From the NCBI RefSeq assembly GCF_010731655.1, contig NZ_AP022619.1:620001-684000 (forward strand): 64,000 nt of DNA. Reading direction: 5' to 3'. Position 1 is the first letter of the stretch; the number at the start of each line of letters is the position of its first letter. This document shows positions 26,239 to 49,294 of the stretch, piece after piece. The position numbers and the translations under genes were made by a program. A model generated the notes under the pieces. It did not search any database and was not told the origin of the DNA. It saw only the letters and a list, made by a program, of their open reading frames with translations. The DNA comes from Mycobacterium paraseoulense. GTDB lineage: Bacteria > Actinomycetota > Actinomycetes > Mycobacteriales > Mycobacteriaceae.

Positions 26239-26922
26239 GTGGCCTCCGAACCGGACCCTACCGGCCAGTCGAAGGCGGCGCTTGCCGCCACGAGTTGGGC
26301 GCTGCTGGGCATGATGTCCTACGAGGAGGAGGTCTCCGGCTACGACCTGAAAAAGTGGATCGACTGGAGCGTCGATCTGTACTACTGGAGTCCGTCGTAC
26401 AGCCAGATCTACACCGAGCTGAAGAAGCTCGAGGGGCTTGGCCTGGTGACCTCACGCGTCGAGCGCGACGAAGGTCCGCGCAGCCGCCGGCTCTACAGGA
26501 TCACGCCGGCCGGGATGGCCGCCGTCACCGACTGGACCAACAACGCCCCGGTGGACCCCCCGGTGCTCAAGCACAGCGTCCTGCTGCGGGTGACGTTTGG
26601 TCACCTCAGCAACCCGGCCCGGCTCAAGGAGCTGCTCCAGGAACACGTCGCCTACGCCGAGGCCAGGCACCGCAAGGCGGTTGAGGACGCCGACGGCGCC
26701 GAGGCCCAACCCGCATGGGCGTATTCGGTGATCGCGCTTCGCTGGGCGGCCAAGTACTACGCTGCGGAGCGCGAATTCGCGCTCGAACTGATGAAGGACA
26801 TCGACGAGGCGGACGCCATTCTGAAGAAGGCGGCGAAGGGGGGCTTCGGGCAGCCGCGCCCGATGCCCGGCTACTGGCGTGAGGTCGAGAAGCAGGTCGA
26901 GGCCAAACGCAAAGCGGACTAG
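26239..26922 (+). CDS. PadR-family transcriptional regulator
   Basis: The 227-residue protein has an N-terminal PadR winged helix (ALLGMMSYEEEVSGYDLKKW, then SQIYTELKKLEGLGLV and RRLYRITPAG) and a C-terminal helical dimerisation half (residues 110-215) of the Vir-type. Starts at GTG 26239. It stands divergent from the F420-type oxidoreductase and convergent, with a 4-base overlap of stops, with the KstD-like gene. Control of either neighbour is plausible. Such regulators usually respond to small phenolic or hydrophobic ligands. The ligand is unknown here. Confidence 0.88.
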   Translation: MASEPDPTGQSKAALAATSWALLGMMSYEEEVSGYDLKKWIDWSVDLYYWSPSYSQIYTELKKLEGLGLVTSRVERDEGPRSRRLYRITPAGMAAVTDWTNNAPVDPPVLKHSVLLRVTFGHLSNPARLKELLQEHVAYAEARHRKAVEDADGAEAQPAWAYSVIALRWAAKYYAAEREFALELMKDIDEADAILKKAAKGGFGQPRPMPGYWREVEKQVEAKRKAD

Positions 26923-28583
26923 CGCGTCGCGTCCCGCGCCGCCGCATCGCGGGCCGCGATGAAGCCGTACACCAGGCCCTGGGCGATCGTCGCCCCCGCG
27001 CCCGGGTACGTCGTGCCGAACGCGTTGGCGGCGGTGTTGCCGATCGCATACAGGCCGGCGATCACGCTTCCATCCTCGCGGAGCACGCGTGCGCGCTCGT
27101 CGGCCTTCAGCCCGCCGCACGTGCCCAGGTCGCTGAGCACCATCTTCACGGCGTAGAACGGGCCGTTGACCAACGGGCGCAGATTGGGGTTCGGCTTGAT
27201 CGTGGGGTCGCCGTAGTAGCGGTCATAGGCGCTGCGCCCTCGGCCGAAGTCGGGATCCTCACCGGCGGCGGCGTTTTGGTTGAACCGCGTCATCGTCTCG
27301 CGGAATTCCGGCACCGACACGTTCATCCGGGCACCCAGCTCGCCGAGGTTGTCCGCCCGCACCGCGATGCCCGCGCCGTACCAGGCTTGCGGGATGCGCA
27401 TGCGCGGGAACAGTTCGGCGCCAAAGACATAACTGTTGCGGTACTGCTGGTCGAACACGATCCACATCGCGTCCACGGGGCTGCCCGACCGCTCCAGCTC
27501 GAGCAGCCGCTGGCCGAACGACATGTAATCCGCGGACTCGTTGGCGAATCGGTGGCCGTTTTGGTCGACGATGAGGCTGCCGGGCAGTGAACGTTCGGCC
27601 AGCATTACCGCCGGCGCCTTGCCCGGCAGGGGCGCGATGGCGGGAAACCACCAGGCTTGATCCATCAAAGCGATATCGGCGCCGAATTCCTGCCCCGCGC
27701 GAATGCCGTCGCCCGTATTGGATTGGGCCCCCAGGCTCAGATGGGCGCCCAGCGACTCGGACTGGAACTTCCACCGCATGTCCATGCTGTGGTCGAAACC
27801 GCCCGTTGCCAGCACCACTCCGCGCCGGGCGGTGATCGTCACCTCGCGCCCCTCATGGTCGACAACCGCGCCAGTCACCCGCTGCCCGTCGCCTTGCAGG
27901 CGAACGAGCGGGCAGTCGGTCCACACCGGGATACCGGCGCGCAGCACCCCGGCGAACAGCCCGGCCATCAGACCCTGGCCACCCGCGGCGTAGCGCCGAC
28001 CGATCAGCCTCCCGCCGAAGCCCTGGGCCACCCGCTTGCCGAACGTGGGGATGCCCTTGCGCGGCACCCGGGTCACGAGGTTCATCCACCGGTAGTCGGC
28101 GCCGGTCGTCGGTATCGAGACGCCGGCCTCAAGCACGCCGGGCCGCAACCGGGTGCGGTACCGGCCGAGGATCGAGGTGTCGAACGGGTGGCATTCGCAC
28201 GTCCGGCCCGCCGCGCTGCCACCCGGTTCCTCGGGGTGGTAGTCGGAGTAGTCGCGGGCCCAGAACAGCCGCAGCGGCGTCGCTCGGCGAAGCATGTCGA
28301 CCGTCGCCGGGACGTGGGCCACGAATTCGGCCGATCGCTGCGGCGGGGCCGAACCCGCCACCACCGAGGCCAGATACGCGGCGGCGCGCTCGGGGGAGTC
28401 CCCGGCGCCGGCGTCTCGCAGAATGGGACTGACGGGTAGCCACAACGCGCCGCCCGACCGGGCTGTGGACCCGCCCACGTAGGACGACTTCTCCGCGATC
28501 AGCACCGACAGCCCGAGTTCGTGGGCGGCCAGTGCCGCGGCCATCCCGGTCCCGGACCCGACCACCAGCAGGTCGACCGTCAT
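26919..28583 (-). CDS. KstD-like 3-ketosteroid dehydrogenase family flavoprotein
   Basis: The 554-residue protein has an N-terminal FAD motif (DLLVVGSGTGMAAALAA), EKSSYVGGSTARSGGALW, a GYSDYYPE-like RDYSDYHPEEPGG and the C-terminal GLYAIGNTAANAFGTTYPGAGATI, all characteristic of the 3-ketosteroid-delta-1-dehydrogenase family (KstD about 563 residues). It should introduce a C1-C2 double bond in a 3-keto ring. The frame runs on to 30167 but only as antisense of the KshA-like gene. ATG 28583 gives MTVDLLVVGSG like KstD; GTG 28631 is an alternative. Divergent from the KshA-like gene, its likely partner in ring opening. Confidence 0.88.
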   Translation of the reverse strand: MTVDLLVVGSGTGMAAALAAHELGLSVLIAEKSSYVGGSTARSGGALWLPVSPILRDAGAGDSPERAAAYLASVVAGSAPPQRSAEFVAHVPATVDMLRRATPLRLFWARDYSDYHPEEPGGSAAGRTCECHPFDTSILGRYRTRLRPGVLEAGVSIPTTGADYRWMNLVTRVPRKGIPTFGKRVAQGFGGRLIGRRYAAGGQGLMAGLFAGVLRAGIPVWTDCPLVRLQGDGQRVTGAVVDHEGREVTITARRGVVLATGGFDHSMDMRWKFQSESLGAHLSLGAQSNTGDGIRAGQEFGADIALMDQAWWFPAIAPLPGKAPAVMLAERSLPGSLIVDQNGHRFANESADYMSFGQRLLELERSGSPVDAMWIVFDQQYRNSYVFGAELFPRMRIPQAWYGAGIAVRADNLGELGARMNVSVPEFRETMTRFNQNAAAGEDPDFGRGRSAYDRYYGDPTIKPNPNLRPLVNGPFYAVKMVLSDLGTCGGLKADERARVLREDGSVIAGLYAIGNTAANAFGTTYPGAGATIAQGLVYGFIAARDAAARDATR

Positions 28584-28733
28584 ATCGGCCACGGGTAGCC
28601 CGGCGGGAATCGTCGTGCTCTGGGGGTTCACGCGCAAAACCGTATGCCCAGGCCGCCCGGCAACGGAAGAGCCGTCCTGATCAGTGGGAACAAGCGGCCC
28701 CGCAAACGGGGGCACGGGAGTTAAATCATCCCT

Positions 28734-29870
28734 ATGACGACGCAGTCCGAGGTCGACGAGGTTCGGCTGATTGAAGCGCAGGCGGTGCCGGCGCGGTTCG
28801 CCCGCGGCTGGCACTGCCTGGGCCTGATTCGGGATTTCGGTGATGGCAAGCCGCACGCCGTCAATGCCTTCGGACAAAAGCTCGTTGTCTTCCGCAGCGC
28901 GAACGGCACCATCAACGTCCTTGACGCCTTCTGCCGGCATATGGGCGGTGATCTCTCGCAGGGCGAAGTCAAGGGCGACGAGATCGCCTGCCCGTTCCAC
29001 GACTGGCGCTGGGGCGGTGACGGGCGGTGCAAGCAGGTGCCCTACAGCCGGCGGACGCCGAAGCTGGCGCGCACCGCGGCGTGGACCACGCTGCAGCAGG
29101 ACGGGATGTTGTTCGTGTGGAACGACCCGGAACGCAAACCGCCGCCCGCGGAGGTCACGATCCCGCGCATCGAGGGTGCCACCAGCGACGAGTGGACCGA
29201 CTGGCACTGGTACACCACGGTCGTGCACAGCAATTGTCGCGAGATCATCGACAACGTGGTGGACATGGCCCACTTCTTCTACATCCACGGCTCGTTGCCC
29301 ACCTATTTCAAGAACATCTTCGAGGGGCAGGTGGCCACGCAGTACATGAACGGCGGTAGCCGGCCCGACATCGGCAGCCCCGAGGGGACGACGATGCTGG
29401 GGACCACGTCGGTGGCGTCCTACTACGGGCCGTCTTTCATGATCGACGACCTGACCTACCACTACACCGACGGCGACGCCAAGACGATCCTGATCAACTG
29501 CCATTATCCGATCGACGCGAATTCCTTTGTGCTGCAATATGGCATCATCGTCAAGAAGTCGGACAAGTTGCCCGGCGATGAGGCGCTGAAGACCGCGATC
29601 AGTCTGGGCGACTTCGTCAAGATCGGTTTCGAGCAGGACGTGCAGATCTGGCGGCACAAGGCGCGCATCGACAACCCGCTTCTGGTCGAGGAGGACGGGC
29701 CGGTCTACCAGTTGCGTCGCTGGTACCAGCAGTTCTACGTCGACGCCGCCGACGTGCAACCGGACATGGTGGATCGCTTCGAGTTCGAGCTCGACACCAC
29801 CCGGCCCTACGAGGCGTGGATGAAAGAGGTCGAGGCCAACATGGCCGCGCAGGGTGCCGGTTCGGCGTGA
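28734..29870 (+). CDS. KshA-like Rieske oxygenase (3-ketosteroid 9-alpha-hydroxylase type)
   Basis: The 378-residue protein has the Rieske [2Fe-2S] ligands Cys67-x-His69 and Cys86-x2-His89 (CRHMGGDLS, CPFHDW) and mononuclear iron ligands around His180 and His185 (DMAHFFYIHG), as in KshA (about 386 residues). It probably hydroxylates a steroid-like ring so that, together with the KstD-like enzyme, ring B opens. The reductase partner KshB is not in this window. The start of the next small gene overlaps its stop by one base. This appears to be a paralogue rather than the cholesterol KshA, because none of the core cholesterol genes are near. Confidence 0.9.
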   Translation: MTTQSEVDEVRLIEAQAVPARFARGWHCLGLIRDFGDGKPHAVNAFGQKLVVFRSANGTINVLDAFCRHMGGDLSQGEVKGDEIACPFHDWRWGGDGRCKQVPYSRRTPKLARTAAWTTLQQDGMLFVWNDPERKPPPAEVTIPRIEGATSDEWTDWHWYTTVVHSNCREIIDNVVDMAHFFYIHGSLPTYFKNIFEGQVATQYMNGGSRPDIGSPEGTTMLGTTSVASYYGPSFMIDDLTYHYTDGDAKTILINCHYPIDANSFVLQYGIIVKKSDKLPGDEALKTAISLGDFVKIGFEQDVQIWRHKARIDNPLLVEEDGPVYQLRRWYQQFYVDAADVQPDMVDRFEFELDTTRPYEAWMKEVEANMAAQGAGSA

Positions 29871-30219: not shown

Positions 30220-31296
30220 TCATGCGAGCTGAAAGGCGCTGACGGGCGCCTCATCGGGGTAGGCGGCGGGGCCGCCCAGGTCGTAGCCGGCGTTGAGCGC
30301 GCTGATGAACCCTGGGTCGTGTAGCGGTTCGCTGGGAATGTCGAGCTTGATGCCCCGGCCGTTGAGGTCGTCGACCATGATGTCGATGGCCTTCTCGATA
30401 GTCAGGTCGTGCGAGCCCTCCATGTTCTTCTTCAGCTCGTCCTGGTCGGTGAACACCTCGGCGGACCAGTGCACCAGGAACCGCAGTTGGTCGGTGTGGT
30501 GGCGGGCTATCACCTCGTCGCCATTCTTGAGCAACCACTGATCGCGGTCACCGGGATCACCGGTGAAGACGGTGTCGAAGGACAAGCCGGCCGGAATCTG
30601 TTCCTGCAGTGGTCCGTTCGCCTCGCCACGATGCACCATCATTTCGTTCTGCACCACCACCCCACGGTTGTTGATCGGCGGCAGAACGCGTTTGGGGGCC
30701 TTGAGCGGCCCGTCGGGCCAGTAGGTGAATCCGCTCCCGGGGTCGAGGGAGAACCACGTGATCACCTGCGCCATCTTGATCAGGTAGTCGCCGAACAGGC
30801 CGGATTTGCCCATCACGCTGGTGAGCCAGGTCGGTGCGTTCTCGTGCCGCACGCCGCGAAAGCTCGGCGAGTCCAGATGCCCCGGGTCGCGGTTGGCGCA
30901 CGGCCCGTTGATGTTGAACAGCATCAGCTGCGGCTTGGCGTACTGGGCGTTCCAGTAGCTCTTGGCCAGCTCGAGAAACCGCGCGTTGTAAAAGCAGTCG
31001 TGCAGTTCTGGGTAGAGCACCGCGCCGTAGTTGGCGAGGTAGCCGCGGAAGGTCGGGGTCAGGAACAGGTCGAGCGACGGGGTGAATCCCTCTGGGAAAA
31101 GCCCGCTCATGGTGGCGATCAGCTCATCGGCCGACGCGAAGTGCTGCGCGATGATCAGCCGCCACGGCCCCTCGGTGCGTACCACCTCGAGCAGTCGGTC
31201 GCGCTGATCGTCCGTATAGACGTCGTCGACCTCGCGCGGCGGCGCGGCCGGCCGCAGGACGTCGGAAAGCTCCATCCGCCGGTCGTCGCTGAGCAT
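30220..31296 (-). CDS. Possible Fe(II)/2-oxoglutarate-type oxygenase in catabolic cluster
   Basis: The 358-residue soluble protein contains an H-x-D motif (PGHLDSPSF, His140/Asp142) and a later His (EMMVHRGEANG, His222), the pattern of the facial metal triad in 2-oxoglutarate-dependent or phytanoyl-type oxygenases. I recognise no full family signature, so this stays tentative. ATG 31296 has AAGGAGA upstream; the frame extends to 31464 without support. It is convergent with the small KshA-linked gene and precedes nothing on its strand, while the esterase-SDR-SnoaL operon lies upstream on the same strand. Confidence 0.6.
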   Translation of the reverse strand: MLSDDRRMELSDVLRPAAPPREVDDVYTDDQRDRLLEVVRTEGPWRLIIAQHFASADELIATMSGLFPEGFTPSLDLFLTPTFRGYLANYGAVLYPELHDCFYNARFLELAKSYWNAQYAKPQLMLFNINGPCANRDPGHLDSPSFRGVRHENAPTWLTSVMGKSGLFGDYLIKMAQVITWFSLDPGSGFTYWPDGPLKAPKRVLPPINNRGVVVQNEMMVHRGEANGPLQEQIPAGLSFDTVFTGDPGDRDQWLLKNGDEVIARHHTDQLRFLVHWSAEVFTDQDELKKNMEGSHDLTIEKAIDIMVDDLNGRGIKLDIPSEPLHDPGFISALNAGYDLGGPAAYPDEAPVSAFQLA

Positions 31297-31369: not shown

Positions 31370-32326
31370 TCACCGGGACGTCGAAACTCCGACCGGGTGG
31401 CCGAACTTGGCGCGCAGTAGCGCGCCGATCTCGGCGATGGCCAGCCGGCCCCGCGCCGTGGCATCCGACCGCATCAAAAATCCGTGGCACATCCCGGGAT
31501 AACGCGTCGCGGTGGTCTGCACGCCGGCGTCCCGCAGCCGTGCCGCGTACCGCTCACCCCAATCCCGGATCGGGTCGCACTCCGCGGTGGCGACGATCGC
31601 CGGCGGGAGGCCGGCAAGCTCGGACGCGTAGGCGGGAACCAGGTATGGGCTGCTGGGCGCACCCCCATCGCCGTCGACCAGCGAGTGCATGTAGTCGATG
31701 TCATCGCGGGTGAGCATCGGGGCATCCGCCAGCGCGGTGACGGACGGAGCCGCCATGTCGCGGTCCAGGCCCGGATACAGCAACACCTGCGCGCAGATCG
31801 GCGGACCGCCGCGGTCGCGCGCGGCGAGCGCGACGCCGGCCGCCAGTGCGCCACCGGCGCTGTCGCCGACCACGCCGAGCCGCTCCGGGTCGACGCCTAG
31901 CCGACGGGCATTGCGTGACACCCATTCCGTCGCGGTGTACGCGTCGTCGAACTGCGCGGGCGGCGGCCACTCCGGGGCCAGGCGGTAGTCGACCGCGACG
32001 ACAGTGGCCGCCGACGCCGCGGCCAGCTCACGCGCCAGGGGTTCGAACGAGTGGTTCGACCCCATCACGAGCCCGCCGCCGTGCAGATACACCAGCACGG
32101 GTCCGCCACTGTCGGGGTTGGGGCGGTAGACCCGTGCCGGGATGTCGCCCGCGGGACCGGGTATGGCTACTTCCGTGACGCCGGCCATCTCGGCCATCGG
32201 CTCGGGCGGCGGCGCGGATTCGAGCGCGGCGCGCACCGCCGCGAGCCCGCGCTGGCGCATCGGTGGGATGTCACCGAACGAAGCGATGCGGGCGGCGGCA
32301 TCGGGGTCCAGCCGGGAGGTCCCCAT
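31370..32326 (-). CDS. HSL-family alpha/beta hydrolase (esterase/lipase)
   Basis: The 318-residue protein has the hormone-sensitive-lipase features: oxyanion motif YLHGGGLVMGS, nucleophile GDSAGGALAAG, acid ECDPIRDWGE and His in MCHGFLMRS. It hydrolyses an ester, lactone or acyl chain. The product of a Baeyer-Villiger reaction would be a suitable substrate. The frame extends upstream to 32584, but ATG 32326 is tucked against the SDR stop (1-base gap, ATG then TGA overlapping region), giving a normal N-terminus. It is the last gene of an operon with the SDR and SnoaL-like gene. Confidence 0.88.
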   Translation of the reverse strand: MGTSRLDPDAAARIASFGDIPPMRQRGLAAVRAALESAPPPEPMAEMAGVTEVAIPGPAGDIPARVYRPNPDSGGPVLVYLHGGGLVMGSNHSFEPLARELAAASAATVVAVDYRLAPEWPPPAQFDDAYTATEWVSRNARRLGVDPERLGVVGDSAGGALAAGVALAARDRGGPPICAQVLLYPGLDRDMAAPSVTALADAPMLTRDDIDYMHSLVDGDGGAPSSPYLVPAYASELAGLPPAIVATAECDPIRDWGERYAARLRDAGVQTTATRYPGMCHGFLMRSDATARGRLAIAEIGALLRAKFGHPVGVSTSR

Positions 32327-32327: not shown

Positions 32328-33200
32328 TCAGCGCTGGTTGGCACTGAACCGGCGTTCCGTGCGCAGTACCGGCCGTCGTTGCGTGGCAAGCACTTCGGCG
32401 CGCTCCGCCATCGCCGCCCCGACATATGCCGGATGTGTGAGCAGGTAGAAACGGCCCTCGGCGGCCTGTTGGAACAGTGTTTCGGCGGCCGCCAGCGGGT
32501 CCATCGCGTCCGCTTTGATGTCCAGCATGGTCTCGCGGTGCGTCTCAGCGGCGCCGATGTCAGCGCCCTCCGCGGCATCGACACCGCCGGCGGATTCGAA
32601 GATGTGGGACACGACCGGCCCCGGCAACACCGCCTGCACCTGTATGTGGTGGTCGTGTCCCGCCATTTGGACCTCGGCGCAGAGGCATTCGGTCATGGCG
32701 AGCACAGCGTGCTTGCTCACGATGTAGGGCGTCTGCAACGGCATCGTCACGACGGCGCCGACTGACGCGACGTTCCACACCCACGCCCGCTCGTCGGCGG
32801 CCATCATTTTCGGCAGAAATGCCCGCACGCCGTGGAAGACTCCGCTGATGTTGACGTCGACGACGCGCCGCCAGTTCGGCACCGGCGTGTCCCACAGATA
32901 GCCGAATTGTTCGATGCCCGCGTTGTTCACCAGCAGCCGCGCCGCGCCGAAATCCCGATAGACCCGGTCCGCGAGCCCCTGCACCGCATCGGGGTCACGG
33001 ACGTCGCAGACGATGTCGACGGCCGTGCCGCCGGCCGCGCACAGTTCGTCGCGCAGCGCCGCGACGCCGTCGGCGTCGATGTCGGCGAGCACCACGGTCA
33101 TGCCCAGCCGGTGGGCGTGCCGCGCCAAACCGGCACCGATCCCGGATCCAGCCCCGGTGATGACGGCGACGCCCCCGGCGAATGCGTCGCGGGCGGTCAT
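32328..33200 (-). CDS. Short-chain dehydrogenase/reductase (SDR)
   Basis: The 290-residue classical SDR has the cofactor loop TGAGSGIG, NNAG (LLVNNAGIEQFG), the Ser region WNVASVGAV and the catalytic YIVSK. Asp in VLADIDADG after the second strand suggests NAD(H). Its start overlaps the SnoaL-like stop (ATGA), and its stop touches the esterase start. It probably oxidises or reduces a hydroxyl/keto group of the cluster substrate. A C-terminal extension (about 230-290) is longer than in minimal SDRs. Confidence 0.9.
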   Translation of the reverse strand: MTARDAFAGGVAVITGAGSGIGAGLARHAHRLGMTVVLADIDADGVAALRDELCAAGGTAVDIVCDVRDPDAVQGLADRVYRDFGAARLLVNNAGIEQFGYLWDTPVPNWRRVVDVNISGVFHGVRAFLPKMMAADERAWVWNVASVGAVVTMPLQTPYIVSKHAVLAMTECLCAEVQMAGHDHHIQVQAVLPGPVVSHIFESAGGVDAAEGADIGAAETHRETMLDIKADAMDPLAAAETLFQQAAEGRFYLLTHPAYVGAAMAERAEVLATQRRPVLRTERRFSANQR

Positions 33201-33676
33201 GACGGGGCGGCGCTGCCGGCATGCAGGTCCGCCAGCAACACCGAGTTGGTCGCGTCGAGCACGACGTCCATCTCGGTGAATTGCAGCCCATTGTCGCCGC
33301 GCCGGACGGCGACGTCGACAACCCCGCTGGACACCGCGAACGGCACGAAATTGGCGATCTGGTTGACGAGGATGTAGAACCGCGCGCGGGTGACGTCACC
33401 GTCGGCGCCGGTGCGGTGGACGTTGGTGGCGTGGTGACGCAACGGGTACGGGCTCTGCTTGCGATGCTGGGACAACCACTGGATCACCGCGTCGCGGCCG
33501 TTGAGCTCGGGCGACATGAGTTCCTCGAAAGGACTTGCGCCCGAGTCGCTTCGAGTCACGTAGCGCACGTCATGGGCATATCTCGCCGCCAGCTCGGCGT
33601 AGTGGGCCTCGTCGTAGTGGTACCAGAACTCGCCGATGAACTCCTGCAGCTCCGACAGCGTGACGTCGTTGTTCAT
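33197..33676 (-). CDS. SnoaL-like / NTF2-fold protein, possible ring-hydroxylating-type small subunit
   Basis: The 159-residue protein has the NTF2-like cone fold pattern (LQEFIGEFWYHYDEAHYAELAARYAHDVRYV, then VHRTGADGDVTRARFYILV). The length and the N-terminal helix resemble both SnoaL-like proteins and beta subunits of aromatic dioxygenases. ATG 33676 is chosen; the frame extends to 33712. It starts the minus-strand operon with SDR and esterase, with a 4-base overlap to the SDR. Catalytic role (isomerase, hydratase) is not settled. Confidence 0.75.
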   Translation of the reverse strand: MNNDVTLSELQEFIGEFWYHYDEAHYAELAARYAHDVRYVTRSDSGASPFEELMSPELNGRDAVIQWLSQHRKQSPYPLRHHATNVHRTGADGDVTRARFYILVNQIANFVPFAVSSGVVDVAVRRGDNGLQFTEMDVVLDATNSVLLADLHAGSAAPS

Positions 33677-33745
33677 GGTTCGAATCAAACTCCACTGCGG
33701 TCGCGGCGGCACGGCGACCGCCCGATGAGTGGAACACCGTCCGCG

Positions 33746-35907: not shown

Positions 35908-35932
35908 CACCGTATCTTCCACCCTGTGCGTT

Positions 35933-37519: not shown

Positions 37520-37621
37520 GCGGGCCACCGTAGGCGCCGGCACCCGACGGCCTGCGGCCGGCGTCCCGCTGAGTAGACAAGGGCCGCCCGATAGCGGTGG
37601 TCGGCGGCGATACTCGGCGTC

Positions 37622-41424: not shown

Positions 41425-42243
41425 TCACGCGTACTGAAGGGCGGGCCGCGGCGCCGGTCCTGCGGGACGCAGCGGGCGCAGCGGCTGCAAGGTCGGCGCG
41501 ACACGTTGCGGGCCGTCCTCGACGTTGCGCCAGATGCCCATCGCGGTCATCCGCACGGGCGAGGTCAACCGCTGGTCGAACATCATGCGGTTCATCGGAC
41601 CGCACACCGACACCGCGGCCACCGCCTCACCCGGCCCGCCGATCGGCGCCGCCACGCAACCGAAGCCGAGGAGCGACTCCTCGCGCTCGAAGGCGACGCC
41701 GTGCGCGCGCACCTTGGCCAGCTCGACGGCCAACTGGGTGCCGCCGGAGATCGAGTATCTCGTCTTCCGTACCCGCAGATCGATGTCGGCATCCTCATCG
41801 CGATAGGCGAGGATCGCCTTGCCGACCGCGGTGCAGTGGGCGGGCTGGCGACCGCCCACCCGGGTGGGGATTCTCTGGTCGCCGATCTTGTCCAGGTACA
41901 CCACGTCCGGGCCCTCGAGGACGGCCAGGTGCACGACAAGGCCGGTGGCGCGGTGCAATTCGCCCAGCAACGGGCCGGCCGCCCGCACCAGCCGGTCCTG
42001 ATGCACGGCGAGCGATCCGAGTTCGACGAGGCGCATGCCCAACTCGTAATCGCGGCCGCTGCGGCGCAACCAGCGCAGCTGCACCAGGCGTTCGAGCATC
42101 CGATGCGCCGACGAGCGCGGCAGGCCGGTACGCCTGACGATCTGCGCCAAGGTGAGTCGCCCCGGACCCTCGAAGGCGTCGAGAACCAGCGATATGCGGT
42201 CGATGACGGCCGTGGGGGTGGCGGATTCAGCGATACCTGACAT
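41425..42243 (-). CDS. IclR-family transcriptional regulator
   Basis: The 272-residue protein has an N-terminal winged helix (ISLVLDAFEGPGRLTLAQIVRRTGLPRSSAHRMLERLV) and a C-terminal effector domain (GPDVVYLDKIGDQRIPTRVGGRQPAHCTAVGKAILA). ATG 42243 has GGAGA upstream; the frame extends to 42516 into the operator region. A set of three ATTCCTA half-sites lies 29-50 bases before the start, suggesting autoregulation. It is downstream of the HsaA-HsaC-like genes and upstream of two small barrel proteins, and so is a good candidate for the regulator of the ring-cleavage unit. Confidence 0.9.
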   Translation of the reverse strand: MSGIAESATPTAVIDRISLVLDAFEGPGRLTLAQIVRRTGLPRSSAHRMLERLVQLRWLRRSGRDYELGMRLVELGSLAVHQDRLVRAAGPLLGELHRATGLVVHLAVLEGPDVVYLDKIGDQRIPTRVGGRQPAHCTAVGKAILAYRDEDADIDLRVRKTRYSISGGTQLAVELAKVRAHGVAFEREESLLGFGCVAAPIGGPGEAVAAVSVCGPMNRMMFDQRLTSPVRMTAMGIWRNVEDGPQRVAPTLQPLRPLRPAGPAPRPALQYA

Positions 42244-42271: not shown

Positions 42272-42293
42272 ATTCCTAATAGGAATATTCCTA
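42272..42293. promoter_or_regulatory. Triple half-site operator upstream of the IclR gene
   Basis: ATTCCTA (42272-42278), its inverse TAGGAAT (42280-42286) and another ATTCCTA (42287-42293) overlap to form a 15-base perfect palindrome with a central A and a second 12-base perfect palindrome (AGGAATATTCCT, 42281-42292). It lies 29-50 bases before the IclR start in an AT-rich gap. It looks like an autoregulatory site for IclR. Confidence 0.75.
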
Positions 42294-42376: not shown

Positions 42377-43843
42377 TCAGCCCTTGGCCGCGGATCGGCC
42401 CGCGCGCCGGCCGTAGAAGCTGCCGTCGCCGAGCGAGATACCGCTGGCGTAGCCCCACGCGGCCAGTCCGGCGGTGCAGCGCCCGGCGGCGAAGAGGCCG
42501 GGAATGGGTTCACCACTGACGTGGAGCACCTCGGCGTCCAGCGTGGTGGCCAGGCCGCCCAAGGTGAAACCGCCCGTGTTTTCCCGCAAGTCGATCGCGC
42601 CGACCGGGGAACCGATGGGCTTCAACCACTCCGGTTTCTTGTGCAGCAGCGGGTCCTCGCCGCGGGCGGCGCCCTCGTTGTAGGCGGCGACGGTCGCCTG
42701 CAGGGATCCCGGCGCCAGGCCCATGTCGCGTTCCAGGTCGGCGACGCTGTCGGCCACCCAGGTCGCCGGGCGCAGCATGAATTTCGGGGACCACGACGCC
42801 ATCGCCTCCTGCTGGGCGTCGTCGTCGATGATCAGGAACGCGATGTTGTCCTGCTGGTAGAGCGTGAGCTGGCCGATGCGGCCCGGATAGGTGTCCTCGG
42901 CGACATAGCGCTGGCCGCGGCCGTTGACCAGGATGCCGCGCACCAATTGTTGGGGGTCGATGAAGATCGCGACCTCGGTGGCGTCCATGTGCGCCAAATC
43001 GGCGCCCAACGCCTGGGCCATCCGGATCGCCTGCCCGTCGTGCTGTTCGATGGAGGCGGCCGGGCGGCCCGCGATCCGCGGGGCGTAACGGGCCACCATC
43101 GCGTCGTTGTAGGCGAAGCTGCCGGTTGCGAGCACCACGCCCTTGCGGGCCCGGACGGCAATGTCGTTGCCGTACCGGCGCGCCCGGATCCCGACCACCC
43201 TGCCGTCGGCTGCGACGATGAGGCCTTGCACCCGCACGTCGTAGAGCGCGCGTGCGCCGGCGGCGGTGGCGGTCTCGACGAGCGGCTTCATCAGCATGTA
43301 GCCCGCGCTGGCTTCGCCCTGCTTCTTGTTCGACATCTGCGGGACGTGCCCGCGCGGGGCGGGGGAGGCGATCGTGTTGAAGGGGTAGGCGTTTTCGCCG
43401 CCGCTGTACATCAGGCCCTGGTCGCCCATCGGTTCCCAGCCGGGTTCGGAGAAGAACTCCGCCTTGAACGGCACGCCGCAGCCGACCAGCCAGTCGAAGT
43501 GGGCCACGCTACCGGCGCAGTAGTCGGCGATCCGGTCCGCGTCGGCGCCGGGTCCCATCGCGACGTTCAGGAACGCCGCCATGTTGTCCACGGAATCGTC
43601 GAAGCCGCAGGCCTTTTGCAGGGGCGTCCCGCCGCCGAGGTAAATGAACCCGCCGGCCATTGCCGCCGCACCGCCCCAGGACCCGGTGCGTTCGGTCACC
43701 AGCACGTCGGCGCCGGAGCGCGCAGCCTCCACCGCCGCGGCGGCGCCGGCCACCCCGTAGCCGGCGATGACCACGTCGGCCTCGTCATCCCACGACGTGA
43801 TCGACGCGGCCGGGACCGGCGTGACGTCGGTGTCCGGCGTCAT
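42377..43843 (-). CDS. FAD-binding protein of the KstD/fumarate-reductase flavoprotein family
   Basis: The 488-residue protein has FAD motif DVVIAGYGVAGAAAAVEAARSG, GGAAAMAGGFIYLGGGTPL and the C-terminal GLFAAGRCTAGLAAWGYASGISLGDGSF. It belongs to the same superfamily as KstD. It likely dehydrogenates or reduces a cyclic ketone intermediate. ATG 43843 overlaps the stop of the HsaC-like gene (ATGA), so the HsaA-HsaC-FAD genes form one operon. Specific substrate position is unknown. Confidence 0.88.
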   Translation of the reverse strand: MTPDTDVTPVPAASITSWDDEADVVIAGYGVAGAAAAVEAARSGADVLVTERTGSWGGAAAMAGGFIYLGGGTPLQKACGFDDSVDNMAAFLNVAMGPGADADRIADYCAGSVAHFDWLVGCGVPFKAEFFSEPGWEPMGDQGLMYSGGENAYPFNTIASPAPRGHVPQMSNKKQGEASAGYMLMKPLVETATAAGARALYDVRVQGLIVAADGRVVGIRARRYGNDIAVRARKGVVLATGSFAYNDAMVARYAPRIAGRPAASIEQHDGQAIRMAQALGADLAHMDATEVAIFIDPQQLVRGILVNGRGQRYVAEDTYPGRIGQLTLYQQDNIAFLIIDDDAQQEAMASWSPKFMLRPATWVADSVADLERDMGLAPGSLQATVAAYNEGAARGEDPLLHKKPEWLKPIGSPVGAIDLRENTGGFTLGGLATTLDAEVLHVSGEPIPGLFAAGRCTAGLAAWGYASGISLGDGSFYGRRAGRSAAKG

Positions 43844-44748
43844 AGCCGCATGGCCGCGGGCATTTCGCCGATCCACTGGTGGCCCCAGTAGCTGTCGGCG
43901 GTGATCTCCTCTGCGGTGTAATAGGTTTCGTCGACGCGCATGCCGTCGGTGCCGAACTCGATGTCCCAGTCCCCGGGAGCGCGGACGTAGAACGACACCA
44001 TCTTGTCGTTGGTGTGCCGGCCCAGCGTGGAGGACAGCTGAAAACCCTCGGCGTTCACCCGGTCCAGCGCCTGGCCGACGGCGTCGAGGCTGTCGACCTC
44101 CACCATGATGTGCACCAGGCGCGGGTCGCGCTGGTGTGCGGCCGGCACGATCGCCAGGCTGTGGTGGCGTTGGTTGATGCCCAGGAACCGGACCCGCACG
44201 GGCCCAAACTCTTTGGGCAAGGGCACCCGGAACGCGCCGCGCGAGCGGAACCCCAGCACCTCGGTGTAGAAGTCGAACAGCCCGTTCGGGTCCGTCGCCG
44301 GCACCACCACGTGGCCCATGCCCTGGTCGCCGGTGACGAATTTCGCGCCGAACGGGGTGACGACGGGGCTGTGGTCGAGCACCGCACCGTGGAAGACCTC
44401 GAGCGTGGTGCCGGCCGGGTCCTCGAAGGTGATCACCTCTTCGACGCGGCGGGCCTCGGCCTCGTCGGTGGACAGCTGCTTGAACGGGGTTCCGGCGGCG
44501 TCCAGGGTCGCCTTGACCCGTTGCAGCGCCGGGCGGTCGCGCACCTCCCAGCCGACCGTCAGCACCCGGTCGGTATCACCGGGCACCACGATGAGCCGGG
44601 CCGCGCGCTCGTCCATCCGCAGGTACAGCGCGCCCGGGTCAGGACCCTTACCCTCGGCGAAACCCAGGACGCCGAAGGCGAATTGCCGCCAGCGGTCGAT
44701 GTCGTTCGTCGAAATGGTGATGTAGCCCAAGCTTTTCAGGTCGGTCAA
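43840..44748 (-). CDS. HsaC-like extradiol dioxygenase
   Basis: The 302-residue two-domain VOC protein has the iron ligands His146 (GMGHVVVP), His213 (VHIMVEV) and Glu264 (DIEFGTDG) at the positions expected for HsaC/BphC, and active-site His195 (QRHHSLAI). It cleaves a catechol ring next to a hydroxyl. TTG 44748 has AGGAGAG, overlapping the stop region of the HsaA-like gene. It is followed by a KstD-family flavoprotein (ATGA overlap). Similar to Mtb HsaC (Rv3568c) in length and motifs but in a different gene order, so a paralogue for another substrate is likely. Confidence 0.9.
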   Translation of the reverse strand: MTDLKSLGYITISTNDIDRWRQFAFGVLGFAEGKGPDPGALYLRMDERAARLIVVPGDTDRVLTVGWEVRDRPALQRVKATLDAAGTPFKQLSTDEAEARRVEEVITFEDPAGTTLEVFHGAVLDHSPVVTPFGAKFVTGDQGMGHVVVPATDPNGLFDFYTEVLGFRSRGAFRVPLPKEFGPVRVRFLGINQRHHSLAIVPAAHQRDPRLVHIMVEVDSLDAVGQALDRVNAEGFQLSSTLGRHTNDKMVSFYVRAPGDWDIEFGTDGMRVDETYYTAEEITADSYWGHQWIGEMPAAMRL

Positions 44749-44757: not shown

Positions 44758-45942
44758 CTAGATCAAGGCCCGCAGGGGGCCCTCGGGCGGGTCGACACCC
44801 AGCGAACTCAGCGCCGACGCGTGATAGGTGGTGCCCGGCATGTGGATGGCGTGCAGTTGGCCGACATGCACGTCGCGCCAATACCGTTGCAGCGGCTTGT
44901 CCATCCGGGCCGCGTTGCCGCCCGAGCGGGCGAAGATCTCGTCGACCGCCGCCACCGCGCGCCACACCGCGCGGATCTGGGTGCGCCGCCCGGCCGCGCG
45001 GTCGGCGAACGACACCTCCTTGCCGGCGGCGACCATGTCGTAGATGCGGTCGGCATTGGCCAGCAGTTCCTGGCGGGCGGCGTTGATGTCGGCGGCCGCC
45101 TCGCCGATGGCGAACATGACGTAGGGGTCGTCCTTGATCGCGGTCCCGGTGGCGCCGACGCGCTCGCGCTGGTAGTCCAGGTGCGCGGCCAGCGCCCCCT
45201 CGGCGATGCCGATCGTGGCCGCCGAGATGCCCAGCGGAAACATCGTCGACCACGGCATCAGATAGAGCGGTTCGGTCATGCCGGCCTCGCGCTGGGCGGT
45301 GCCGTCCATCACCTTCGTAGCATCCATCGTCCGGTAGGACGGGACGAACGCATCGGAGACGATGACGTCCTTGGAGCCGGTTCCGCGCAGCCCCACCACG
45401 TTCCACGAGTCCTCGACGATCTCGTAATCCTTGCGCGGGAGGATCATGTGCAACATCTGCGGCGGCATGATCGGAATGCCCTTGTCGTCGCCCAGCATCG
45501 CGCCCAGGATGATCCAGTCGCAGTGGTCGGTGCCCGAGCTGAACTGCCAGCGGCCGTTGAAGATGTAGCCACCGTCGACCGGTTTGGCCACCCCCTGCGG
45601 CGCGTACGGCGAGGCCATCCACGTGTCGACGTCGTCGGCCCAGATTTCGGCCGCGACCTTCGGGTCCGCGTACGCCAACTGATAGGGGTGCACGCCGACC
45701 ACGCCGACGATCCAGCCGGCCGCCGGGTCCAGCGCGGCGGTCGCCATCGTCGTCTCGGCGAACTCGCGGGGGTGCACCTCGAAGCCCTGATACTGCTTGG
45801 TTTGCAGCAGCCGGATGAGACCGGCGCCCTTCATCAGCTTGACCGTGTCATCGGTGAGCCGGCCGATCCGCTCGGCCTCGGGGGCCTGGTCGCGCAACTG
45901 ATCCGCCATCGCCACGACCCGGTCGAGTACCCGTTCGCTCAT
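44758..45942 (-). CDS. HsaA-like flavin-dependent monooxygenase (acyl-CoA dehydrogenase fold)
   Basis: The 394-residue protein (same length as Mtb HsaA) has motifs such as AAGWIVGVVGVHPYQLAYADP, NGRWQFSSGTDHCDWIILGA, VVGLRGTGSKDVIVSDAFVP and IQRYWRDVH-like LQRYWRDVHVGQLHA. HsaA hydroxylates a phenolic ring using reduced flavin from HsaB. No HsaB-type reductase is adjacent; the nearest split-barrel flavin reductase is at 16738. ATG 45942 has AAGGA upstream. It heads the operon with the extradiol dioxygenase. Confidence 0.9.
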   Translation of the reverse strand: MSERVLDRVVAMADQLRDQAPEAERIGRLTDDTVKLMKGAGLIRLLQTKQYQGFEVHPREFAETTMATAALDPAAGWIVGVVGVHPYQLAYADPKVAAEIWADDVDTWMASPYAPQGVAKPVDGGYIFNGRWQFSSGTDHCDWIILGAMLGDDKGIPIMPPQMLHMILPRKDYEIVEDSWNVVGLRGTGSKDVIVSDAFVPSYRTMDATKVMDGTAQREAGMTEPLYLMPWSTMFPLGISAATIGIAEGALAAHLDYQRERVGATGTAIKDDPYVMFAIGEAAADINAARQELLANADRIYDMVAAGKEVSFADRAAGRRTQIRAVWRAVAAVDEIFARSGGNAARMDKPLQRYWRDVHVGQLHAIHMPGTTYHASALSSLGVDPPEGPLRALI

Positions 45943-46219
45943 GTTGGTGTCCTTACGTCTGGAGGCTTAGTAATGGTCTACCGCAGTTCGTGCCTCAGCC
46001 GAAGCCGTTCCCGATGAGCGGAAGCAAAAGCGCTCAGAATTCAGCCTCCGATGCGCCGCTCACGGGCCGGGCCTGGCGCGTGGGAATCGGGCCGTCCAGC
46101 CGGCTCGAGGTTGCCGTGCGCCCTGCGCGCGGCCGATGGCCGGGACAACGTCACCGCAGTGTCCGGTCACCGGGAACCGGCCCCGGCGGTCGAGGTGGCA
46201 GGACATACCGTCGGTGCCT

Positions 46220-47830
46220 GTGAATAGCGCGGAGCTGGTCGACGTTGTCGTGGTCGGCGCCGGGTTCGCCGGCCTCTACGCCCTACACAAGCTGCGCAGT
46301 CAGGGACTGTCCGTGCGGGTCCTGGAGGCGGCGCCGGAGCTGGGAGGCACCTGGTACTACAACCGATACCCGGGGGCGCGCTGTGACGTCGAAAGCGTCG
46401 ATTACTGCTATTCGTTCTCCGATGAACTGCAGCAAGAGTGGAACTGGACCGAGAAGTACGCCACCCAGGCGGAGATCCTCGCCTACCTGAACTGGGTGGC
46501 CGACAAACTCGACCTGCGGCGCGACATCACATTCCGTGCCCGCGTCGTGTCCGCGGCGTTCGACGACACCGCGCTGCGCTGGGTGGTCACCACCGAGGGT
46601 GGCGACGTGCTGTCCGCCCGGTTCTGCCTGATGGCGACGGGTCCGCTGTCAGCGGCTTTGACGCCGAACTTCCACGGCCTCGAGTCGTTCGCGGGCGAGA
46701 TCTACCACACCGCCGCTTGGCCGCAGCATCCCGTCGATTTCGCCGGAAAGCGGGTCGCCGTTATCGGCACCGGTTCGTCTGGCATTCAATCGATTCCGAT
46801 CATCGCCGAACACGCCAAACATCTCTTCGTCTTCCAACGCACGCCCAACTACAGTGTCCCGGCCGGCAACCAGCCGTTGACCAAACGGGAACTCGACGAC
46901 ATCAAGGCGAACTACCCGGAACGGCGACGGCTCTCGTGGCGCAGCGGCGGCGGGTCACCGCACATCACGGCGCCGAAGCCGACGATGGAATTCACGCCGG
47001 AGGAACGCCGGGTGGCCTTCGATAAGCGTTGGCAGCTGGGCGGTGTGCTGTTCTCGAAGACGTTCCCCGACCAGATGATCGACTTGACCGCCAACGACGA
47101 GGCCCGAAAGTTCTACGAGGAGAAGGTGCGCGCCGTCATCGACGACCCCGCGCTGGCGGACCTGCTTATCCCCAACGATCACCCGATCGGCACGAAGCGG
47201 ATCTGCACCGACAGCAACTATTTCAGCACCTTCAACCGGCCGAACGTGTCGCTCATCAGCGTGCGCGACACACCGATCGAAGCCGTGGACACCACTGGGA
47301 TCAGAACCGCCGGCGCGCACTACGACGTCGACATGATCGTGCTGGCAACGGGTTTCGACGCCCTCACCGGTGCGCTGGCCAAAATCGACATCATCGGACG
47401 CGGCGGTCGTCGGTTGCGGGACGACTGGGCACAGGGGCCGCGCACCTACCTGGGGCTGGGCGTCGACTCATTTCCCAACCTGTTCCTGATCTCCGGTCCC
47501 GGGGCGCCCGCGGTGCTGGCGAACATGGTGCTGCACGCCGAGGCGCAGGTGAATTGGATCGCCGCGACCATTGCCTACCTCGACGGGCACGGGTTGGCCG
47601 CGATCGAGGCGACCCGCGATGCCGTCGACGGCTGGGGGGCCGAATGTGCCCGCCTCGCCGAGGCCACGCTGTTCACCAAGGCGGAGTCCTGGTACATGGG
47701 CGCCAACGTGCCCGGAAAGCCAAGGGGATTCATGTTGTTCGTCGGCGGCTTCGCGACATACAACGACATCTGCGACGAGGTGGCCAAGGCCGGTTACCGG
47801 GGCTTCGATCTGGTTGAGAAGCCACGATGA
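46220..47830 (+). CDS. Baeyer-Villiger monooxygenase (second), CHMO type
   Basis: The 536-residue flavoprotein has two dinucleotide folds (VVVVGAGFAGLYALHKLRSQG and RVAVIGTGSSGIQSIP) and a perfect BVMO fingerprint, FAGEIYHTAAWP. This is the length of cyclohexanone/steroid-type BVMOs. GTG 46220 is chosen; GTG 46214 and ATG 46136 are possible. Its stop overlaps the next SDR by 4 bases (ATGA), as for the first BVMO. It is divergent from the HsaA-like operon across a 277-base gap, which probably holds promoters for both. Confidence 0.9.
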   Translation: MNSAELVDVVVVGAGFAGLYALHKLRSQGLSVRVLEAAPELGGTWYYNRYPGARCDVESVDYCYSFSDELQQEWNWTEKYATQAEILAYLNWVADKLDLRRDITFRARVVSAAFDDTALRWVVTTEGGDVLSARFCLMATGPLSAALTPNFHGLESFAGEIYHTAAWPQHPVDFAGKRVAVIGTGSSGIQSIPIIAEHAKHLFVFQRTPNYSVPAGNQPLTKRELDDIKANYPERRRLSWRSGGGSPHITAPKPTMEFTPEERRVAFDKRWQLGGVLFSKTFPDQMIDLTANDEARKFYEEKVRAVIDDPALADLLIPNDHPIGTKRICTDSNYFSTFNRPNVSLISVRDTPIEAVDTTGIRTAGAHYDVDMIVLATGFDALTGALAKIDIIGRGGRRLRDDWAQGPRTYLGLGVDSFPNLFLISGPGAPAVLANMVLHAEAQVNWIAATIAYLDGHGLAAIEATRDAVDGWGAECARLAEATLFTKAESWYMGANVPGKPRGFMLFVGGFATYNDICDEVAKAGYRGFDLVEKPR

Positions 47831-48627
47831 AGAGACTGCTCGGCAAGGTAGTGCTGGTCACCGGCGCGGCGAGGGGTACCGGACGGGTGCATTGTCAGCG
47901 CTTCGCCGACGAGGGCGCAGATGTGATCGCGCTCGATGCGACCGCGGCAAGCGACGAGTTGCTCGACACCGCAAGGGATGTCGAAAGCCGCGGTCGGCGC
48001 TGCGTGACAAGTGTTGCCGACGTGAGTCATTTGGGGGCTGTAACGGGCGCCGTAGCCAACGGCGTCGCGGCACTGGGGCGCCTCGACATCGTCGTCGCGA
48101 ATGCCGGAATTCACCTTGCCGGCGGCCGGACGTGGGAACTCGACCCCCAGGACTGGCAGCGCACGCTCGACATCAACCTGACCGGCGTATGGCACACGGT
48201 CAAGGCCGGTGTACCGCACATGGGCGAAGGCGGCGCGATCGTGATCATCAGTTCGACCAACGGTCTTCGCGGGACGCCCAATACCGCGCATTACACGGCG
48301 AGCAAACACGCGGTGGTGGGGTTGGCGCGCACCCTGGCGAACGAGCTCGGGCCGTCGAGGATCCGGGTCAACACCGTTCATCCCGGACCGGTCGCGACCC
48401 CGATGGTGCTCAACGACAAGATGTTTCGGCGGTTACGCCCGGATCTCGAGAACCCGACCGCCGCGGACGCCGCGGAAGTGCTGCGGGCGCGCAACCTGCT
48501 GCCGGTGCCGTGGGTGGAGCCCGTCGACATCGCCAACGTGGCGGTGTTCCTGGCCTCCGAGGAGGCCCGCTACATCACGGGCACGCAGCTCGTCGTAGAC
48601 GCCGGCCTGTCACAGAAGGCGACATGA
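47827..48627 (+). CDS. SDR family oxidoreductase, mycofactocin-coupled type
   Basis: The 266-residue SDR has the variant cofactor motif VTGAARGTGRVHCQRFADEGADVIALD, a pattern seen in SDRs that use a tightly held NAD recycled by mycofactocin (carveol-dehydrogenase-like). Catalytic SSTNG and HYTASKHAVVG follow. Its ATG overlaps the BVMO stop. It probably oxidises an alcohol to the ketone for the BVMO. It is the second BVMO-SDR pair of the region. The mycofactocin genes themselves are not in the window. Confidence 0.85.
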   Translation: MKRLLGKVVLVTGAARGTGRVHCQRFADEGADVIALDATAASDELLDTARDVESRGRRCVTSVADVSHLGAVTGAVANGVAALGRLDIVVANAGIHLAGGRTWELDPQDWQRTLDINLTGVWHTVKAGVPHMGEGGAIVIISSTNGLRGTPNTAHYTASKHAVVGLARTLANELGPSRIRVNTVHPGPVATPMVLNDKMFRRLRPDLENPTAADAAEVLRARNLLPVPWVEPVDIANVAVFLASEEARYITGTQLVVDAGLSQKAT

Positions 48628-48652
48628 GCAGCAGACCGGAAAAGCGGTCACC

Positions 48653-49294
48653 GTGCTCGCCGTGGCCGCGCGCTTCGCGCAGCAAGGCATCGCGGGGATG
48701 ATGGGCAACGATGGCAGCGGCGCACCGGCGTATGAAGCGCTCACCCAGTCCGTTCGCCGACTGATCGACGCGACCATCCGCACCGAGGCCGGCGCCGGTA
48801 CCGTTGTGGCGGCGAAGACGCACATTGATTGCGCGATAGAGCAATTGAGCGAAAGCCTGATGCCGGGCTCATTCGGTGTTCGCAACCCGTTCGACGGCCA
48901 ACCTGTCACCTCCGGCAACGTCATGATCGGTGCACGCAACCCGGTCGCACCTCCGCTGGTAATCCACCGCGACGCCGGTGGTGCCGTGTGGACCGAAATC
49001 ACACTCGGCGCCGCCTACGAAGGGCCTCCGGGGCATGTCCATGGCGGAGTGTGCGCGTTGGTCCTCGACCACGTCCTGGGCGCGACCGCGCACGAACCCG
49101 GTCGACCGGCCTACACCGGCACGCTCACCCTGCGCTATGTCCGGGGGACCCCGTTAGGTCTGGTGCGGGCAGAAGCGTGGGTCGAGCGCGTCGAGGGCGT
49201 GAAGACCTTCGCGAAGGGGCAGATAACCGATAGCCAAGGACTCACGGTCGGTGCGGAAGGCGTGTTCATAAAGCCGCGCGGTGCCCGTGACTGA
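48653..49294 (+). CDS. PaaI-type hotdog thioesterase
   Basis: The 213-residue protein has a hotdog-fold core with EGPPGHVHGGVCALVLDHVLGAT and YTGTLTLRYVRGTPLG, and ends in GLTVGAEGVFIKP, typical of PaaI-like thioesterases. It should hydrolyse an acyl-CoA. GTG 48653 is used; ATG 48698 or 48701 may be the true start, which would give about 198 residues. It follows the BVMO-SDR pair by 25 bases, so it probably belongs to that operon. It is convergent with the long P-type ATPase gene. Confidence 0.85.
   Translation: MLAVAARFAQQGIAGMMGNDGSGAPAYEALTQSVRRLIDATIRTEAGAGTVVAAKTHIDCAIEQLSESLMPGSFGVRNPFDGQPVTSGNVMIGARNPVAPPLVIHRDAGGAVWTEITLGAAYEGPPGHVHGGVCALVLDHVLGATAHEPGRPAYTGTLTLRYVRGTPLGLVRAEAWVERVEGVKTFAKGQITDSQGLTVGAEGVFIKPRGARD

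Follow-up and report, generated by a model that had tools for sequence, protein, structure and literature searches.

What does a second set of steroid-type ring-degradation genes do in a mycobacterium, and on which compound would it act? The question is raised by a gene cluster of Mycobacterium paraseoulense, found in a 64-kb stretch that was analysed as a whole (positions 620001-684000 of the complete 6.09-Mb single-contig genome, contig NZ_AP022619.1; hereafter the window). The cluster spans 26.2-49.3 kb of the window, plus a gene for HsaD at 54.6-55.5 kb. Its gene content makes us confident that it is a steroid-type cluster specifying a route for the degradation of rings A and B; 20-keto (5alpha-)pregnanes are tentatively put forward as its main substrate.

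Ring-degradation enzymes

Genes were called by Pfam and NCBIfam scans of the open reading frames (ORFs) of the region. The original prediction, made from the DNA sequence, had named KstD-, KshA-, HsaA-, HsaC- and HsaD-like proteins, a FadD, a FadE pair, two Baeyer-Villiger monooxygenases (BVMOs), short-chain dehydrogenases (SDRs), an esterase and a thioesterase; a frame check recovered every one of these classes with an intact reading frame. The 3-ketosteroid delta1-dehydrogenase KstD (26919..28583, minus strand) scores 1045 bits against the cut-off of 793 of NF009479, and the catalytic Tyr/Tyr/Tyr/Gly of solved KstD are kept in the alignment. The adjacent KshA-type oxygenase of 3-ketosteroid 9alpha-hydroxylase (28734..29870, plus strand; PF19298 and PF00355) contains the Rieske and iron-ligand motifs, and its best solved relative is 4qdf_B, an enzyme of that same kind (624 bits). 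The later steps are represented by an HsaC-type extradiol dioxygenase (43840..44748, minus strand), an HsaA-type flavin monooxygenase (44758..45942, minus strand) and an HsaD-type hydrolase (54612..55505, minus strand), assigned to the HsaC2, HsaA2 and HsaD2 clades by the trees described below. All three fall below the cut-offs of the cholesterol-type NCBIfam models (HsaA, 365 versus 450 bits; HsaD, 277 versus 400; HsaC, 372 versus 450 for the HsaC equivalog), and the dioxygenase is therefore named HsaC-type only.

Two further enzymes give the cluster its character. The protein encoded at 42377..43876 (minus strand) shares 68% identity (753 bits) with the delta4-(5alpha)-3-ketosteroid dehydrogenase (delta4-(5alpha)-KSTD) of Rhodococcus jostii, 4at0, and keeps the catalytic residues Y319, Y466 and S468. 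This assignment goes beyond the original prediction; a delta1-KstD function was rejected for this protein, as it matches delta4-(5alpha)-KSTD. The gene at 46136..47830 (plus strand) encodes a BVMO of the STMO type, by homology a progesterone C17-C20 monooxygenase, with 64% identity over 529 residues to the solved STMO of R. rhodochrous (4aos), a score of 790 bits with STMO versus 619 with phenylacetone monooxygenase (PAMO), and an intact type I fingerprint, FAGEIYHTAAWP. The first thus shares the catalytic residues, the second the fingerprint, with its solved counterpart; the activities of both are predicted by homology. Six window proteins were compared with the PDB, and for four the best match is a named steroid enzyme; HsaC matches best a protein deposited as BphC, and the second BVMO a cyclohexanone monooxygenase. 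Apart from the cluster, a further STMO-like BVMO (56% identity to that of the window), with an esterase-like ORF adjoining it, is encoded 9 kb past the window end (692.8-695.3 kb of the genome; L095:8779-11348).

Together these enzymes would form a self-standing route through rings A and B of 3-ketosteroids that does not belong to the KstR (cholesterol) regulon. By homology, delta4-(5alpha)-KSTD would desaturate 5alpha-reduced 3-ketosteroids and KstD would form the 1,4-dienone, after which KshA, with the core KshB acting in trans, would hydroxylate C9, with opening of ring B. HsaA, supplied in trans by an HsaB-type flavin reductase, would make the catechol that HsaC cleaves; HsaD would hydrolyse the cleavage product, and rings C and D would pass to the core pathway. 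As had been predicted, the scanned ORFs of the cluster include neither HsaB nor KshB nor a thiolase. Genome-wide, the HsaB model matches four proteins, of which only the core copy exceeds the cut-off (a weak match in the window, at 16738-17235, reaches 39-41 bits versus 230), and KshB at an E-value of 1e-30 yields the core copy and one 34% match only. Sharing of the core KshB is plausible because R. rhodochrous has five KshAs that all work with a single KshB in vitro (PMC4064121).

Separation from the cholesterol locus

Might the cluster be a redundant duplicate of the cholesterol pathway? The types of reaction are the same, and the cholesterol cluster of this genome (3.50-3.55 Mb) covers the same ring reactions, with kshA at 3504 kb, kstD at 3513 kb, hsaB/C/A at 3548-3552 kb and kshB at 3552 kb. 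It lies 3 Mb from the cluster studied here, at 0.65 Mb, and differs from it by having its own HsaB and KshB. The window proteins share, however, no more than 41-60% identity with the core copies (KshA 60%, HsaC 47%, KstD 44%, HsaA 41%), and they belong to separate clades. In maximum-likelihood trees of 45 (HsaA), 41 (HsaC) and 33 (HsaD) rows the window proteins are separate from the core copies, of which there are 11, 11 and 10, respectively (support 100/99, 100/100 and 100/100), and they cluster with copies that adjoin KshA in other genomes and genera; the split between core and cluster copies recurs in 100% of 200 bootstrap trees for each protein. The exception is in the HsaA tree, where four second paralogues labelled as cluster copies (Saccharopolyspora, Nocardioides) join the core side. 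An unlabelled row of the same tree, from the M. paraseoulense genome itself (193 kb), falls in the core clade next to the core copy of M. litorale; a third KshA (60%) adjoins this paralogue (191.3-194.9 kb; L093).

The regulatory signals agree with the trees. The KstR-like box pattern TnnAACnnGTTnnA has 11 matches over 80 kb of the cholesterol loci, versus one in the 64-kb window and none in the cluster, the sole window match (61568) being outside it. Likewise, no TetR/KstR-type regulator was seen among the ORFs scanned, and the PadR and IclR regulators that had been predicted in its stead were both found. A duplicate of the cholesterol locus was rejected on the trees and the KstR boxes, and is hardly credible. 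The original prediction of a second ring cluster, distinct from the cholesterol locus, is thus borne out by HsaA, HsaC and HsaD phylogeny, by location and by the KstR boxes; in the comparison with the cholesterol set that it had proposed, these three cluster copies are not the core orthologues.

Relation to known clusters and conservation

M. smegmatis reportedly possesses a C-19+ or cryptic steroid-nucleus cluster (said to have been described by Fernandez-Cabezon in 2018), in which the PadR gene beside kstD2 and kshA2 is presumably MSMEG_2868. The window cluster resembles it, as far as M. smegmatis is known here from printed descriptions, in the adjacent PadR, KstD and KshA genes, the second HsaA/HsaC/HsaD set and the lack of a KstR operator. 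The printed sizes are 522 and 558 amino acids (aa) for the KstDs MSMEG_2867 and MSMEG_2869, 386 aa for the KshA MSMEG_2870 and 351 aa for the KshB MSMEG_2893, none of which has a KstR operator according to PMC5270728; they resemble the series KstD3-PadR-KstD-KshA...KshB2 of M. aurum (515, 227, 558, 385 and 358 aa). The genes kstD2, kstD3, kshA2, kshB2, hsaA2, hsaC2 and hsaD2 are considered critical in PMC6351609, where partial sets of three or four of these seven were present in three of four isolates. Among the 396 genomes of the genus that were screened, a porin probe gave no 100% match; one genome with four MspA-like porins has no HsaA2, whereas another with three does have it. The novelty of the cluster class that the original prediction implied does not hold, as the arrangement fits this published type.

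The two differ in that KstD3 and KshB2 are absent from the window, where a P-type ATPase gene is interposed before HsaD. As these two genes, as well as the HsaB2, zinc-dependent alcohol dehydrogenase (Zn-ADH), aldehyde dehydrogenase (ALDH) and enoyl-CoA hydratase (ECH) of fast-growing relatives, are missing, we file the cluster as a variant: it is probably a trimmed slow-grower form of the known cryptic C-19+ type, likened to it by the printed descriptions of M. smegmatis.

Two other systems can be compared. R. jostii RHA1 gene cluster 2 (ro02490, kshA2) is likened to the window by published placement alone: PMC4810484 groups its proteins with some from R. erythropolis and M. smegmatis as a third subclade, to which no function is assigned there. 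The pdc cluster of Caenibius tardaugens uses a BVMO and a luciferase-like monooxygenase (LLM) for progesterone, and its steroid BVMO makes 17-acetates, as predicted for the window STMO; unlike the window cluster it consists of four genes, with TetR/LuxR regulators and no ring genes, according to PMC12239570. An LLM gene also adjoins the window cluster: it encodes an F420-type protein (25184-26119; TIGR03619 above cut-off) and is divergent from PadR; among the 80 best KshA loci it was seen in only three (L009, L010 and L025).

The gene order recurs in dozens of 21-kb mycobacterial loci, so that the arrangement is not due to chance, and the nearest relatives of the window among the loci and trees compared are from Mycobacterium species. 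A KshA match at 1e-150 or better, which counts the cholesterol paralogue too, was found in 357 of 396 genomes of the genus, and one at the cluster-type level of 1e-200 or better in about 235 of the 396 (hand count). Among the best 80 named KshA loci of the matches listed, 36 have a gene for a 2-oxoglutarate (2OG) dioxygenase-like protein downstream, 22 have HsaA within 10 kb without the 2OG gene, and 22 have neither in view. The long form reads PadR-KstD-KshA-2OG-esterase-SDR-SnoaL-(FadE pair-FadD)-BVMO-SDR-two small proteins, followed by IclR-delta4KSTD-HsaC-HsaA-STMO-SDR-HsaD, with the thioesterase mostly at the PadR end. This order is largely the same in M. aurum, M. litorale, M. peregrinum, Mycolicibacter sp. 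MYC098 and M. alsense, each of which has lost some genes (FadE and FadD in M. alsense). In M. alsense HsaD is contiguous with the cluster, which argues that the window HsaD is part of the unit and that the P-type ATPase (49300-53874; a 1524-aa ORF of unsure start, between thioesterase and HsaD) interrupts it; the original prediction had not taken account of this interruption.

The genes missing from the window have a patchy distribution. PadR has a second KstD gene no more than 3 kb away in M. aurum, M. vaccae, M. litorale, M. moriokaense, M. rhodesiae and Mycolicibacter MYC098. The two genes are immediate neighbours in the first two species, and a thioesterase or HsaB2-like gene separates them in the others; none was found near PadR in M. 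peregrinum. KshB2 stands beside HsaA2 in M. aurum, M. litorale, M. peregrinum and MYC098. Outside the mycobacteria, STMO, delta4-KSTD, HsaA, HsaC, HsaD and KshA occur together in three Amycolatopsis loci. In a metagenome-assembled Mycobacterium (L060) the block delta4KSTD-HsaC-HsaA-STMO occurs twice in 21 kb.

The substrate

Which compound would enter this route? In combination, an STMO-type BVMO, a delta4-(5alpha)-KSTD, an esterase and SDRs would convert 20-keto (5alpha-)pregnanes directly into the ring substrates. STMO would turn a 20-ketone of the progesterone or 5alpha-pregnane type into the 17-acetate, from which the esterase and a 17-hydroxysteroid SDR would yield the 17-ketone. The esterase (31370..32326, minus strand, start uncertain; PF07859) is of the hormone-sensitive-lipase type, with HGGG and GDSAG motifs and 300 bits with the LipP1 model, below its cut-off of 350. 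SDRs are encoded at 32328..33200 (minus strand; PF00106), 39550..40437 (plus strand; PF00106) and 47827..48627 (plus strand; PF13561). STMO is present in all six long-form clusters in which the HsaA side is visible (the window and five relatives), and the R. rhodochrous enzyme makes testosterone acetate from progesterone (PMC12239570). A personal communication in the same source has M. smegmatis using progesterone once its 'ADD+' cluster is active; if M. smegmatis has an STMO, an in-cluster STMO would be a simpler reason for this than the LLM MSMEG_4862, which that paper credits instead of a BVMO. We tentatively favour 20-keto (5alpha-)pregnanes as the main substrate on the strength of these homologies. 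The original prediction, in contrast, had thought of another sterol, a bile-acid-like compound or a polycyclic terpenoid, which appear less likely given the STMO-type BVMO and the delta4-(5alpha)-KSTD.

Several points weigh against the picture drawn so far. The crediting of the LLM just mentioned is one of them, and the esterase, the SDRs and the second BVMO may have their roles in other chemistry. The window HsaC passes TIGR03213, the model of biphenyl-2,3-diol 1,2-dioxygenase (380 versus 366 bits), and queries with KshB2 of M. peregrinum and KstD3 of M. aurum gave no match in the window. M. aurum has STMO and lacks a close delta4-KSTD. MSMEG_2867 and MSMEG_2869 rise modestly on cholesterol in the RNA-seq data of PMC4881515, and an mce group at MSMEG_2854-2865 is induced by it.

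The remaining points bear on a rival substrate: C19 steroids (AD, ADD, 9-OH-AD) may be degraded as such, with STMO and the side-chain genes as accessories. The M. smegmatis cluster is called a C-19 steroid route in PMC5962712 and PMC10672877. Moreover, of 38 HsaA2 copies six were set aside for short flanks, and among the other 32 no STMO was found within 6 kb of 19, including six of the 16 in Mycobacteriaceae, so that the ring core is independent of it; it is within that distance of the remaining 13, ten of them in Mycobacteriaceae. However, among the 36 loci with 2OG downstream of KshA there are 35 in which an esterase gene comes after it, and according to PMC10672877 neither phytosterol nor C19 steroids activate the cluster, the natural trigger of which has yet to be established. 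C19 steroids as such are a rather doubtful substrate.

The pregnane assignment leaves over FadD, the FadE pair, the 2OG-like protein and the second BVMO, which may constitute an extra side-chain or ring module. FadD (35933..37519, minus strand; PF00501) scores above the cut-off of NF006182, and the FadE pair consists of a C-terminal-type subunit (33746..34771, minus strand; PF00441) and its N/M-type partner (34768..35922, minus strand; PF02771 and PF02770). The second BVMO (37622..39553, plus strand), with Pfam matches of the flavin monooxygenase/BVMO type, has an N-terminal extension, the fingerprint FAGVEVHSAQWD, 195 bits with cyclohexanone monooxygenase and 32% identity to STMO. The 358-aa protein at 30220..31296 (minus strand) is without Pfam or NCBIfam match, and its HxD...H triad and a conserved Arg are invariant in 36 sequences. 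In a Foldseek comparison with viral models its one match under E 0.001 is an uncharacterised protein from a phage, with numerous named 2OG dioxygenases following at E > 0.001. Among proteobacteria the protein has homologues at 71-74%. It looks like an Fe(II)/2OG dioxygenase, perhaps of a new family.

These genes would be central if the substrate were a steroid or triterpenoid whose side chain is an alkyl group or an acid. The 2OG dioxygenase and then Zn-ADH, ALDH, FadD, the FadE pair and ECH in fast growers would oxidise its terminal methyl group and shorten the chain. The window retains FadD and the FadE pair, which in M. peregrinum, M. aurum, M. litorale and MYC098 are separated by genes for Zn-ADH, ALDH and ECH. 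The window itself, however, is without such ADH, ALDH and ECH genes and has no thiolase among the scanned ORFs, and the M. alsense cluster does without FadD and FadE; the FadE subunits, at 26-36% identity to five other acyl-CoA dehydrogenases of the genome that were compared, give no clue to a substrate. We regard a side-chain substrate as unlikely.

A cholate (bile-acid) or polycyclic-terpenoid cluster, in line with the original prediction, is another alternative: the KshA scores 539 bits with 4qdc, KshA1 of R. rhodochrous. PMC4064121 links this KshA1 to cholate. The higher score of the window protein with 4qdf_B, and the named steroid enzymes found as best PDB match for four of the six proteins, stand against this alternative, as does the FadD score of 264 bits versus a cut-off of 750 for the steroid-24-oyl-CoA synthetase CasG. 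A bile-acid cluster thus has little support, although no search was aimed at bile-acid or terpenoid genes, and we consider a cluster of either kind very improbable.

A shared element and candidate regulators

How might the set be switched on? The predicted route would have a conserved element, read by PadR or IclR, switch on all genes together. A 17-bp element with the consensus TCCYGATSAGYGGAACA was found in most of 45 aligned KstD-KshA intergenic regions (four of them duplicate places). A weight matrix was trained on 34 of 38 such regions: the window, L009 and L010 were excluded, the four duplicate places had been removed earlier, and four regions were dropped (more than seven mismatches, or minus strand); seven of the 34 training sites have five to seven mismatches. 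The top score in the window (24.8; 33714..33742, plus strand) lies before the SnoaL-SDR-esterase-2OG genes, followed by a site in the divergent KstD-KshA promoter (21.0; 28669..28697, plus strand), which is homologous to the training set, and one upstream of HsaD (16.7; 55510..55538, minus strand). The window thus holds three sites scoring at least 16.5, versus 0.05-0.13 expected per 64 kb, and a 180-kb control from this genome has none. The 120 sequences simulated with Markov models, 60 each of order 1 and order 3, gave scores of up to 21.9, which only the 24.8 site exceeds. Weak sites occur in the FadD-BVMO promoter (10.4; 37558..37586, plus strand) and the divergent HsaA-STMO promoter (11.2; 46003..46031, plus strand). 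They rest on position, not on score, because seven sites of at least 10.4 are present versus 1.6-2.2 expected, two of them outside the cluster (12122 and 16575).

In the loci of relatives, where a score of at least 10 within 150 bp was counted and some genomes entered twice (e.g. L034, L127), the element precedes SnoaL in 33 of 38 cases, BVMO in 10 of 18, HsaD in 12 of 26, HsaA in 14 of 34 and FadD in three of 15, with a background rate of 1.2% of 3000 random stretches. It was found once each before PadR (1/39), IclR (1/14) and KstD3 (1/14), and in none of the relatives before STMO (0/10) or before esterase, 2OG, FadE-large, HsaC, delta4-KSTD, thioesterase and KshB2 (n=10-41 each). Against a common switch speak its weakness at two of the five window places, its absence before the window delta4-KSTD and IclR, and its absence from the KstD-KshA promoter of the close relatives L019 and L023. 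Only the weight matrix separated the sites: a consensus search allowing three mismatches found 12 versus 8.75 expected, and 19 of 100 shuffles reached 12.

Candidate readers of the element are the PadR regulator (26239..26922, plus strand; PF03551), which adjoins KstD/KshA in relatives too, and the IclR regulator (41425..42243, minus strand, start set by eye; PF01614 and PF09339). Perfect inverted repeats with 6-bp arms are absent from four of six intergenic regions searched, including KstD-KshA, PadR-type ATGT/ACAT operators being outside the scope of that search; one pair is present in the HsaA-STMO region. A palindrome, ATATTCCTAATAGGAATAT, upstream of IclR (42270-42288) is a candidate autoregulatory site. 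It is somewhat doubtful that the whole scheme applies, in which long-form clusters would be dedicated to 20-keto (5alpha-)pregnanes and controlled through the one element, PadR or IclR would bind a C21 steroid or its product, and the new 2OG family would act on a steroid.

Other genes of the region

The cluster also encodes a SnoaL-like protein (33197..33712, minus strand; PF13577), a protein with a C-terminal Dabb (alpha/beta-barrel) domain (40448..41095, minus strand; PF07876) and a small protein of conserved position and without family match (41067..41414, minus strand), perhaps also an alpha/beta barrel as judged by eye from the translation. These, like the 2OG-like protein, add to the original prediction. 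A hotdog thioesterase (48653..49294, plus strand; PF03061) has its counterpart at the PadR end in many relatives. Further SnoaL-like proteins (PF13577) flank HsaD: that at 53978..54583 (plus strand) adjoins it in M. alsense, and that at 57102..57581 (minus strand) is near it in some relatives, M. alsense included.

Elsewhere in the window Pfam matches indicate an arsenic-type island (16043-21627) with two regulators of the ArsR type (one of which carries a fused low-molecular-weight phosphatase domain), an SBF-family transporter, a glyoxalase-fold protein, a phosphatase and a flavin reductase; a multicopper oxidase (21485-23080) follows it. A type III polyketide synthase and an ICMT-family methyltransferase are encoded at 60785-62442, and just before the window there is a single ORF of 5502 aa, perhaps a megasynthase (602.4-619.0 kb of the genome; L094:2448-18956).

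Implications

This kind of ring cluster is already known; new are the proposal of a pregnane substrate, the element common to several promoters and the family of 2OG-like proteins. Searches of open-licence PMC papers brought up no proposal that names an STMO in such a cluster, as far as the listings and passages go. The cluster may cost yield in industrial steroid production (PMC5962712). Given a putative progesterone-type monooxygenase, a predicted 5alpha-steroid dehydrogenase and a shared element in such a cluster, the question of the natural substrate becomes testable with few compounds and one footprint.

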